Source of the DNA: Intestinimonas butyriciproducens
Lineage (GTDB): Bacteria > Bacillota > Clostridia > Oscillospirales > Butyricicoccaceae
NCBI RefSeq assembly: GCF_016901775.1
Contig: NZ_JACJKW010000002.1
Location: 1 to 64,000 of the forward strand
Length of the DNA stretch: 64,000 nt
Reading direction: 5' to 3'
The position numbers were made by a program, and so were the translations under genes. The first letter of the stretch is position 1. Every line of letters begins with the position of its first letter. The notes under the pieces are model-generated. The model was not told the DNA's origin, ran no database searches, and saw only the letters and a program-made list of their open reading frames with translations. Below, piece by piece: positions 18,593 through 48,234 of this stretch.

Positions 18593-18823
18593 ACAGCCCT
18601 TGTCCCATAAACAGGACAAGGGCTATGGTCGTCCGAAAAACGATATAGCAAAAAGAATGTCCGCCTTTTTTGATCCGTAAAAAGTGGCGACCTGTGCGTC
18701 ACTTTTTACACTTCTCAAGAGGCAAGTGCGGGTTAAAGCGTGCACGCAGCCCCTTGCAAAACTCGAAAAAGTGGATTCGCCACTTTTTCGAAGCCAACAG
18801 CCCTTGTCCCATAAACAGGACAA
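18593..18823 (-). repeat. Terminator-flanked structured repeat, copy 1
   Basis: This is a 177-bp core (18620-18796), oriented on the minus strand, between two copies of a 27-bp direct repeat (18593-18619 and 18797-18823). The repeat unit contains the hairpin arms CCTTGTCC and GGACAA. In the minus orientation the core reads TCGAAAAAGTGG hairpin, GCAAGGGGCTGC, CACTTGCCTCTTG, then a hairpin with 10-bp stem (18677-18686 with 18700-18709) around the 13-nt loop ACGCACAGGTCGC. It is homologous to the copies at 42693 and 45069. It lies in the gap between the 89-residue gene and the Cys-rich gene. It is non-coding; reading frames across it are chance. Confidence 0.85.
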
Positions 18824-20326: not shown

Positions 20327-20337
20327 ATCGTGGACAG

Positions 20338-20507
20338 AGATCAACCGGTGCGCCGGGAAAGTTTTTCCGGCGAGAATAGGTAAGTTGGGTGCAATTCCCA
20401 CGCGGGACCGCCGCTGTAATGGCCGAGCCCTTTTCCAGAATGTCACTGTGGTTACACACGGGAAGGCGGAAAGGGCAAAGACGCCTGAGCCAGAAGACCT
20501 GCCTGTT
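20338..20507 (+). ncRNA. Cobalamin (AdoCbl) riboswitch
   Basis: The conserved blocks occur in order: GAATAGGTAAG and GGGTGCAATTCCCACGCGG, then ACCGCCGCTGTAATGG, CACTGTG, GGGAAGGCGG, and the closing GACGCCTGAGCCAGAAGACCTGCC (given in part; 20469-20505). This is the standard core of the cobalamin riboswitch, which binds a corrinoid through the B12-box region. A downstream intrinsic terminator at 20609 indicates control by premature transcription termination of the cbi operon. Confidence 0.95.
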
Positions 20508-20608
20508 GATAAATAGCCGGGCCGCATTGCGGCGCGCGGCAGATTACACAGCTAACGGAATCCTTGGCTGGCGTAACAAGGGCAGTGCTTTGGCACTTTG
20601 GTCTTTTT

Positions 20609-42692: not shown

Positions 42693-42926
42693 GAAAGGGG
42701 CGGCTGAGCCGCCCCTTTGAGCGTGTCGAAAAAGTGGCTTGAGCCACTTTTTCGAGTTTTTGCAAGGGGCTGCATGCACGCCTTCGGCGCACACTTGCCC
42801 CTTGATAGGTGCAAAAAGCCACGCACAGGTCGCGGCTTTTTGCGAATTGATGAAGGGTAGGGCAAACGATCTTTTCGTTATATAGGTTTCTCGATAGTCT
42901 GAAAGGGGCGGCTGAGCCGCCCCTTT
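42693..42926 (+). repeat. Terminator-flanked structured repeat, copy 2
   Basis: This is a 182-bp core (42719-42900) between two identical 26-bp direct repeats (42693-42718 and 42901-42926). Each direct repeat is a complete hairpin, GGGGCGGC with GCCGCCCC. The core has a hairpin AAAAAGTGGC/GCCACTTTTT (42729-42752), a stem CAAGGGG/CCCCTTG (42763-42804) enclosing a small CGCC/GGCG hairpin, and a 10-bp stem 42811-42820 with 42834-42843 around the loop ACGCACAGGTCGC. The right-hand hairpin with its T run is the terminator of the aminotransferase region; orientation of the core is opposite to both neighbouring genes. Confidence 0.88.
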
Positions 42927-44230: not shown

Positions 44231-44278
44231 TTGAGGATTCCGTGCAAATAGTCTATAATTTCATTGTGTAAAATGAAA
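44231..44278 (+). promoter_or_regulatory. Promoter and operator of the iclR-type gene
   Basis: TTGAGG (44231), a 17-bp spacer and TATAAT (44254-44259). The -10 box runs into an inverted repeat TTTCAT, 8 bp, ATGAAA (44259-44278), placing a probable autoregulatory site at the transcription start. Confidence 0.6.
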
Positions 44279-44293
44279 CGGGGAGGAAGAACC

Positions 44294-45070
44294 ATGGAAA
44301 AGAAGCTGGCCAAAGTGAATCAATCGGTGGAAAAGGCATTGCAGCTGGTAGAGGTGCTGGCTTCTTCCCGGGAGCCCATGCGACTGGGGGATCTGGCGGC
44401 GGCCTGCGGCCTTCCGGCCAGCACCACGCTGCGTCTGGTAAACACCCTGCTGCTTCATGGCTATGCCAATCAGGACCCGGTGACGCTGCGCTATTCTCTC
44501 ACGCTGAAATTTGCCCAGATCGGCAGCCAGGTCTCTTCCCAGATGGATATCCGCAACCTGGCCCATCCCTGGCTGCTGGAGCTTTCCAGCCGGTGCGGGG
44601 AAAGCTGCTGCCTGGCCATTGAGGAGAACCGGCAGGTGGTTTATGTGGATGTGGTGGAAGGCCCCGATGGAATGCTGAAAATCATGCAGCGCATCGGAAA
44701 AAGGGCACCTTTGTACTGTACCGGCGTGGGGAAGATCTTTCTGCTCAACGACGATGCCGCCTCCCTGGAACAGTATATCGCAGAAAATGGTCTGGAACCC
44801 CTGACTTCCCACACCATCACCACCCGGGAAGGGCTGCTTTCGGAACTGGACAGGATCGGGCGCCAGGGATATGCCCTGGACGATGAAGAGTGCGAGCAGG
44901 GAGCCCGGTGCGTGGCTGCCGGGGTGCGGGATTACACGGGAAAAGTGGTGGCTGGCATCAGTGTTTCCGGCCCGCTGCACCGGATGGAGCCGGAACACAT
45001 CCGCCGGATCATTCCCCAGGTCCAGCGCACCGCCCAACGCCTGTCCCAGCTTCTGGCCTACGAAGAATAA
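44294..45070 (+). CDS. IclR family transcriptional regulator
   Basis: The 258-residue protein has an N-terminal winged helix (KVNQSVEKALQLVEVLA, LAAACGLPASTTLRLVNTL in part) and the IclR effector domain (LYCTGVGKIFLLNDD, GYALDDEECEQGARCVAAGVRD in part, ISVSGP). Such proteins bind small carboxylates and control divergent metabolic genes. Its neighbour, the aminotransferase at 42953, is the likely target. ATG 44294 has GGGAGGAAGA upstream. Element copy 3 begins at its 3' end, where the terminator would be. Confidence 0.9.
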   Translation: MEKKLAKVNQSVEKALQLVEVLASSREPMRLGDLAAACGLPASTTLRLVNTLLLHGYANQDPVTLRYSLTLKFAQIGSQVSSQMDIRNLAHPWLLELSSRCGESCCLAIEENRQVVYVDVVEGPDGMLKIMQRIGKRAPLYCTGVGKIFLLNDDAASLEQYIAENGLEPLTSHTITTREGLLSELDRIGRQGYALDDEECEQGARCVAAGVRDYTGKVVAGISVSGPLHRMEPEHIRRIIPQVQRTAQRLSQLLAYEE

Positions 45071-45325
45071 AAAGAGCGTGCCGTCTGGCACGCTCTGAGC
45101 ATGTCGAAAAAGTGGCAGGAGCCACTTTTTCGAGTTTTTGCAAGGGTCTGCATGCAGCCGATTGCTGCTTTTAGCGTCCAATCGGCTACACTTGCCCCTT
45201 GAAAGGTGTAAAAACCGACGCACAGGTCGCCGGTTTTTGCGGATTGATGAGGGGGAGGGCACATATTTCTCTCCAGCTGGATCAGTCTTTCGACCGCAAA
45301 AAGAGCGTGCCGTCTGGCACGCTCT
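45069..45325 (+). repeat. Terminator-flanked structured repeat, copy 3
   Basis: This is a 201-bp core (45097-45297) between two identical 28-bp direct repeats (45069-45096 and 45298-45325). Each is the hairpin GAGCGTGCC / GGCACGCTC. The core has the AAAAAGTGGC/GCCACTTTTT hairpin (45106-45129), a CAAGGG/CCCTTG stem with a larger internal hairpin (GCCGATTG with CAATCGGC, 45157-45186), and the stem 45208-45217 with 45231-45240 around the invariant loop ACGCACAGGTCGC. It sits between the convergent iclR-type gene and recR, where one bidirectional terminator is expected but two identical ones are found. Confidence 0.88.
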
Positions 45326-45335
45326 TTTGCTGTGT

Positions 45336-45935
45336 TCAGATTTGGGTACGGCCTTCCAGGGCCCGGGTGAGGGTCACTTCGTCGGCATATTCCAGATGCC
45401 CGCCCACAGGCACGCCGTAGGCCAGACGGGTCACAGCCACACCAAAAGGTTTGAGCAGCCGGGAAAGGTACATGGCCGTGGCCTCCCCTTCGGTGTCCGG
45501 GTTTGTTGCCATGATGACCTCCCGGATGTCCTCGTCGGCCACCCGCTGCAGCAGCTCCTTGATGCGCAGCTGATCGGGGCCGATGCCGTTGAGGGGAGAG
45601 ATCACCCCGTGAAGCACATGGTAAAGTCCCTTGTATTCCCGGGTGCGCTCCAAAGCCACCACATCCTTGGGGTCGGTGACCACGCAGATCAGTCCTTTGT
45701 CCCGCATGGGATCGGAACAGATGGAGCAGATTTCACCATCGGTGAGATTCTGACACACCTTGCAGGTGTGTACCGTCTGTTTGGCATCCAGAATGGCCTG
45801 GGCAAATTCGGCCGCCTGATCCTCTGGAAGATCCAGCACGAAAAAGGCCAGCCGCTGGGCGGTTTTATAGCCGATGCCCGGCAGACGCTCAAATTGCTCG
45901 ATGAGCTTTTCCACCGGCGGCGCAAAATATTTCAT
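45336..45935 (-). CDS. recR: Recombination protein RecR
   Basis: RecR acts with RecO and RecF in loading RecA at gaps. The 199-residue protein has the helix-hairpin-helix [16 protein letters not shown], a four-Cys zinc finger (C..C near residue 58-61 and CSIC), and the Toprim region [14 protein letters not shown] and [15 protein letters not shown]. It lies 2 nt after the YbaB-type gene, in the dnaX-ybaB-recR order usual in Firmicutes. Confidence 0.96.
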
Positions 45936-47930: not shown

Positions 47931-48234
47931 CAGCGGCGACTCCCAAGGCTGCACACCGCTTCCTCGAAGACGTCCTTTGCCCGTAACCCGTATGCTCGGC
48001 TCAAAACCGGTTGGCCGCGGCACACAGACTGTGCCGCTTAATGCTGCTCGGTTCCCCGCCTGACATGGTTCACGGCGATCTGTTGCGCGGGACCGATCTC
48101 TCTCAGCTTTGCATACGAGGCAGACGGCAAAAAGACGAATCCTCTGAAACGGAATTAACCCCTGCATATAGCGGATTTCAGGTGATAAGGAACCGCTGAC
48201 TCCCCGGTTAGTGCAGCCTTGGCAAGCGCCGCTG
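47931..48234 (-). ncRNA. ffs: SRP RNA (large Firmicute type)
   Basis: The two ends are complementary: CAGCGGCG ... AAGGCTGCAC at the 5' end pairs with GTGCAGCCTT ... CGCCGCTG at the 3' end. The domain IV signature is present on the minus strand near 48043-48070 as GTCAGG, a CGG/CCG stem capped by GGAA, and AGCAGC. The position just upstream of dnaX is the same as scr in Bacillus. The length of about 304 nt indicates a form with an Alu-like domain. A T-rich tract follows the 3' end. Confidence 0.88.

Follow-up and report, generated by a model that had tools for sequence, protein, structure and literature searches.

A hairpin-rich repeat in Intestinimonas butyriciproducens, seen three times within the 64,000-nucleotide stretch of contig NZ_JACJKW010000002.1 analysed here (the window), raises the question of what kind of element it is, how it reached its present sites and why its fold has been kept. 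A preliminary description had placed the three copies on their strands and reported that they share the order hairpin AAAAAGTGGC, CAAGGG/CCCTTG stem and final stem enclosing the same loop ACGCACAGGTCGC in each copy, and have compensated apical pairs in that last stem (GCC/GGC, CCG/CGG and GTG/CAC); all of this was reproduced. Its outer coordinates for the first copy, 42693-42926, take in, at either end, a terminator hairpin duplicated perfectly over 26 bp, which went unremarked there, and the signs of mobility, namely terminal inverted repeats and duplication of a whole terminator as target, were missed.

Three copies in the window

The features of the three copies are listed below; the score refers to covariance model R1, built from 40 copies of the I. 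butyriciproducens genome.

42719..42900, plus strand: element copy 1, 182 bp; R1 score 214.9 bits
42693..42718, no strand: left terminator-hairpin duplicate (target-site duplication) of copy 1, 26 bp, identical to 42901-42926
42901..42926, no strand: right terminator-hairpin duplicate of copy 1, identical to 42693-42718
42726..42755, plus strand: hairpin 1 of copy 1, TCGAAAAAGTGGC-TTGA-GCCACTTTTTCGA, with the left terminal inverted repeat as 5' arm
42763..42804, plus strand: stem 2 of copy 1, CAAGGGGC...GCCCCTTG, with inner strands CTGCATGCA/CACACTT and a variable apical hairpin
42811..42843, plus strand: hairpin 3 of copy 1, GCAAAAAGCC-ACGCACAGGTCGC-GGCTTTTTGC, with conserved loop
42887..42900, plus strand: right terminal inverted repeat of copy 1, TTTCTCGATAGTCT
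45097..45297, plus strand: element copy 2, 201 bp, with a longer apical hairpin in stem 2
45069..45096, no strand: left terminator duplicate of copy 2, 28 bp
45298..45325, no strand: right terminator duplicate of copy 2
18620..18796, minus strand: element copy 3, 177 bp
18797..18823, no strand: terminator duplicate of copy 3 on the 5' side of the minus-strand element, 27 bp
18593..18619, no strand: terminator duplicate of copy 3 on the 3' side of the minus-strand element

Copy 2 is flanked by the gene for an IclR-type regulator (44264-45070, plus strand) and, on the opposite side, adjoins recR (45336-45935, minus strand). Elsewhere in the window, a cobalamin riboswitch (20329-20520) and the large SRP RNA (47949-48216) gave ordinary Rfam matches.

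A high-copy family bordered by duplicated terminators

When the whole I. butyriciproducens genome (2.58 Mb, 74 contigs) was searched with the loop 13-mer ACGCACAGGTCGC, 45 matches were obtained versus none for the reversed control, well beyond chance; two of the 45 sit at contig ends and probably represent a single copy. Searching with the element ends recovered about 20 more copies with variant loops, and the total is at least 60. The elements measure about 177-254 bp and contain no gene. Genes called by codon usage place 25 copies in a convergent, 21 in a co-directional and 1 in a divergent context, as expected if insertion targets terminators; orientation counts based on ORF length alone are unreliable at the G+C content of this genome and were not used. 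Two subfamilies can be told apart in this genome: L007, L015, L025 and L028 carry another stem 2 insert of about 60-70 nt (GGCGGCGAGCCGCC...CACCCCGCCC), and in L013, L019, L027 and L083 hairpin 1 is broken by the replacement of TTTTTCGAG with TTTAGGGGG, some copies of the latter type still having intact terminator duplications.

The terminal inverted repeats are imperfect (left GAGCGTGTCGAAAAAG, right TTTTTCGACAGTCTG), and most copies have TGTCGAAAAAG at the 5' end and TTTTTCGACA at the 3' end. Most elements are bordered on both sides by an identical hairpin resembling an intrinsic terminator, with a sequence specific to the locus (copy 1: GAAAGGGGCGGCTGAGCCGCCCCTTT; copy 2: AAAAAGAGCGTGCCGTCTGGCACGCTCT). 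Similarity between left and right flanks exceeded the 99.9th percentile of mismatched flanks in 35 of 51 copies, and only 6 of the 2550 mismatched pairs, taken from different copies, scored 15 or more; a recognisable second terminator is absent in about one third of the copies. The duplicated stretches are hairpins, with a stem score of at least 8 in 90% of the elements and in 100% of the insertion sequences described below, compared with 4% of random stretches. The length of the duplication correlated with that of the hairpin inside it with r = 0.91 for the elements and 0.98 for the insertion sequences, a measure that is limited by the way it is constructed. When the outer flanks were taken in as well, r was 0.52 (P = 0.001, 36 sites), moderate because A/T tracts blur the foot of the hairpin.

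In the sister species of the same genus, compared by BLAST, a lone terminator without the element occupies the site orthologous to copy 1, and at the site orthologous to copy 2 a lone terminator is accompanied by an additional gene; the terminator sequences there differ from those of the window, and the exact ancestral site was not recovered. Terminal inverted repeats together with a duplicated terminator also occur in several other genomes (for example at L107, L114, L155, L157, L158 and L236), and mobility is therefore general. The longest duplication accompanying an element, 43 bp (AAAGCTCCGAAGAAAGG...CCTTTCTTCGGAGCTTTC), belongs to L155 (4957-5160). With terminal inverted repeats, a target-site duplication, small size, many copies and no transposase gene, the repeats have the characteristics of MITEs.

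A structured core conserved across Clostridia

The core of the element consists of three hairpins, the third of which carries the conserved loop GYRCAYGYC (in I. butyriciproducens itself, G stands in place of the Y that follows CA). Between divergent copies the stems are wholly different and the loops are kept, and most of these copies also retain the stem 2 inner strands CTGC(A/G)(T/C)GCA and CACACTT. With model R1 the architecture was recovered from 35 of the 87 family genomes and 45 of the 396 order genomes; model R2, built from 29 divergent copies from several families, detected it in 17 of the 393 genomes representing the class, other orders included. The family first described from three copies thus extends through the genome and its relatives, and the covariation reported for it rises as copies are added: double-sided changes affect 9 pairs over the 40 I. 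butyriciproducens copies and 26 of 33 pairs over the 29 divergent ones, in which 97% of cells pair. The covariation score of the divergent set was 0.714, versus 0.194 ± 0.014 after shuffling and no more than 0.203 after sliding of the partners, figures that come from related sequences in an alignment fitted to the model and are not probabilities.

The preliminary description had not recognised the family, and we concur, in that the core gave no Rfam match at the gathering score in the window or at 19 divergent loci and only sub-threshold chance hits at a relaxed E-value. Taken together, the comparison establishes the core as a predicted fold that covaries class-wide and has no Rfam entry. Searches of phages, plasmids and viral contigs gave no match to the core, and a phage or plasmid origin was dropped; a pseudoknot between CACTT and AAGTG was also dropped, as other genera do not preserve AAGTG. 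Tandem arrangements were seen at three loci. Partial cores, each repeated along with the end of the upstream gene, lie at L145 (5671-6165) and L146 (5564-6058), in genomes that are nearly identical here though assigned to different families, possibly through contamination or transfer, and L147 (5881-6708, genome G215) has five units with the core of about 170-180 bp each.

A link to IS1182-family insertion sequences

A family-wide transposase search returned an element with ends starting CAGTCTGTCGAAAAAG and a terminator duplication of 30 bp around it. The protein it encodes, 488 aa long, is a transposase of the IS1182 family (NCBIfam NF033551, 403.5 bits; cut-off 270). An order-wide search added more full-length members of this family, nine of which are flanked by direct repeats of 26-39 bp that constitute complete palindromic hairpins and have CAG(C/T)(C/T)TGT-type ends, CAGNCTGTCGAAAAA, matching those of the window elements. 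The 11-bp end CTGTCGAAAAA is common to elements and insertion sequences, and the left terminal inverted repeat of the elements matches the insertion-sequence ends at only about 12 of 16 positions. In empty sites rebuilt by joining the flanks, the hairpin-foot offsets were equal on both sides in all nine insertion sequences, and their duplications are centred exactly on the dyad of the palindrome.

These results bear on another reading of the flanking repeats, as a functional double terminator or the scar of a recombination event. Both flanks are indeed terminators, but they match each other at a given locus and differ between loci, duplication of this kind also accompanies the IS1182 insertion sequences, and the sister species carries only one terminator; we give this reading next to no credence. 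On sequence grounds, we establish the repeats as high-copy, gene-less transposable elements with IS1182-type ends and a whole-terminator target duplication. The link to a known insertion-sequence family runs through the ends and the mode of insertion only, which point to IS1182, and does not extend to the structured core.

Only two size classes were observed, one of 171-245 bp with the core and one of 1.3-1.6 kb with the transposase, and no intermediates carrying both were seen among the loci examined. Covariance models R1 and R2 did not find the structured core in any IS1182 insertion sequence tested, and the elements are therefore not simple internal-deletion derivatives. An IS1182 transposase was found neither in the incomplete 74-contig assembly of I. 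butyriciproducens nor in the complete genome G005, which carries nine copies of the element. Other transposase fragments, in genome G008, were rejected as partners because their ends do not match.

Proposed transposition mechanism

IS1272 and TnSha1, which belong to the IS1182 family, target a stem-loop, often a transcription terminator, whatever its sequence, and delete or replace this hairpin without duplication (PMC4923244, PMC5678879). The model of Wan et al. (2017) for IS1272 contains a pathway b, only hypothetical there, that would yield two copies of the entire stem-loop through joining at its 5' feet (PMC5678879), and both our elements and the related insertion sequences fit this pathway. 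Based on the shared ends and the whole-hairpin duplication, we read the repeats as non-autonomous, MITE-like elements with IS1182-type ends, which a transposase of the IS1182 type would move in trans, joining them at the feet of a stem-loop, a reading to which we assign a probability of roughly 0.85. As the assembly contains no IS1182 partner and the insertion sequences lack the core, cross-mobilisation is deduced from the ends and the target.

According to this proposal, the target DNA would extrude a stem-loop, to whose 5' feet a DDE transposase of the IS1182 type, acting in trans, would join the two 3' ends of the element; repair of the gaps would then copy the whole hairpin onto both sides. 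Joining at the hairpin feet followed by gap repair would cause the length of the duplication to be set by the structure of the target rather than by a fixed stagger, and the elements and insertion sequences described here would provide many natural cases of such structure-determined duplication. Since the target terminator remains, in duplicate, insertion would be nearly harmless, permitting a high copy number.

It could be argued that an enzyme other than IS1182 moves the elements and that the similar ends and target are convergent, as there are copy-rich genomes without an IS1182 transposase. However, MITEs commonly outlast their transposase and draft assemblies lose insertion-sequence copies, and the two classes have in common both the 11-bp end and the unusual duplication of a whole hairpin, which renders a different enzyme improbable.

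Why is the fold kept?

Transposition in trans by an IS1182-type enzyme would account for the ends and the target; conservation of the core calls for a separate explanation. It is unusual for MITEs that the interior fold of a gene-less element, rather than its sequence, is kept across a bacterial class, and this points to a putative binding partner. We propose, with less assurance than for the transposition steps, that the internal hairpins, chiefly hairpin 3 with its loop, may be retained by a protein that binds the folded DNA or RNA and aids the spread of the element. We consider such assistance by a bound protein the most likely reason for maintenance of the core, with a role as host RNA as its main rival.

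The composition of the stems bears on this choice. In the three main stems, G.U occupies 3 of 741 cells and A.C 6 of 741 in the divergent set, and each occupies 10 of 1040 in the I. butyriciproducens set. This wobble of 0.4-1% contrasts with 16.5% G.U in the SRP RNA of the window, and the flanking terminators are likewise low and symmetric (G.T 1.6%, A.C 1.5%). The proposal, made from the three copies, that selection acts on a folded RNA or single-stranded DNA is upheld only in part: the fold and its compensatory changes are real, but the low wobble, which by itself would suggest selection at the DNA level, is equalled by the terminators of the same genome and so favours neither RNA nor DNA. 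Part of the covariation pattern could also stem from template switching that corrects the arms of palindromes. If the arms co-varied mainly by mutation, through such correction and exchange between copies, there would be little selection on the fold, and the swaps from GC to CG with wobble intermediates almost absent, as well as the similar pattern of the terminators, agree with this. A mainly mutational origin nevertheless leaves unexplained why the loop and the inner strands (GYRCAYGYC; CTGCRYGCA/CACACTT) are conserved across families and orders in which the stems are wholly different, and we consider it unlikely. The pair that closes hairpin 3 is A.C if read from the plus strand but G.T, alternating with G-C and A-T, if read from the minus strand, which hints, from this one position only, at a minus-strand fold.

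In five species (L113, L116, L119, L120 and L123), a core without terminal repeats lies between infB and rbfA (names assigned by reading and not by family search). The orthologous copies do not vary over 37 consecutive positions covering hairpin 3 and its edges, next to a downstream spacer that cannot be aligned, which suggests that the core came under constraint after insertion. Distant copies lie between genes that, by reading, resemble groES-groEL, pgk-tpiA and ybeY-era. No strand bias relative to genes was found in the I. butyriciproducens genome (12 versus 9). In other genomes, crude gene calls gave 31 ++ versus 7 --, a suggestive sense-strand bias that weakens with better gene calling and comes from copies that are not independent, the f12 gene model also looking unreliable.

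These observations can be read as signs of a structured RNA that would serve the host as a module in 3'-UTRs or between cistrons, with the IS1182-type ends as no more than its vehicle and some copies domesticated. The massive class-wide covariation, the infB-rbfA orthologues, the distant operon copies and the crude ++ excess all favour it, whereas the missing strand bias in the own genome, the shrinking of the bias elsewhere and the rarity of G.U, no commoner than A.C, weigh against it; we regard it as possible, though the less probable outcome. It is tempting to speculate, with similar reserve, that the core is an undescribed nucleic-acid module with a conserved fold and the recognition loop GYRCAYGYC, which IS1182-type transposition with duplication of terminators has carried through the class Clostridia and which has repeatedly become domesticated, both at the ends of genes and between those of housekeeping operons such as infB-rbfA.

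Comparison with known systems

Duplication of a complete palindrome has a parallel in CRISPR adaptation, where Cas1-Cas2 attacks both ends of a palindromic stretch, although the target there is a fixed repeat; the likeness is in mode only and implies no relation in sequence or machinery. Group IIC introns also insert at terminator hairpins that are recognised by structure, but the present elements have terminal inverted repeats and a target duplication and lack a reverse transcriptase, and Rfam gave no match to a group IIC intron motif (domain V/VI, catalytic core) over them. The bcr1 repeats of the Bacillus cereus group are high-copy, mobile and intergenic, of similar size and with a conserved fold, and are known only from one species group. 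From these and other structured bacterial MITEs our elements differ, by description, in ends, target and host range, the core spanning Clostridia. REP/BIME repeats are likewise high-copy intergenic palindromes, but are not known to duplicate their target. Their units measure 20-40 bp (PMC3733652), and the size of 177-254 bp and the duplicated target, together with the terminal inverted repeats, set our elements apart, ruling out a REP/BIME identity.

A close likeness is to IS1182-family insertion sequences, in particular IS1272 and TnSha1 of staphylococci, which share the preference for a stem-loop or terminator irrespective of its sequence (PMC4923244, PMC5678879). Whereas these remove the stem-loop, the window elements duplicate it whole, and they differ from IS1182 insertion sequences in lacking the transposase and in carrying a structured core of their own.
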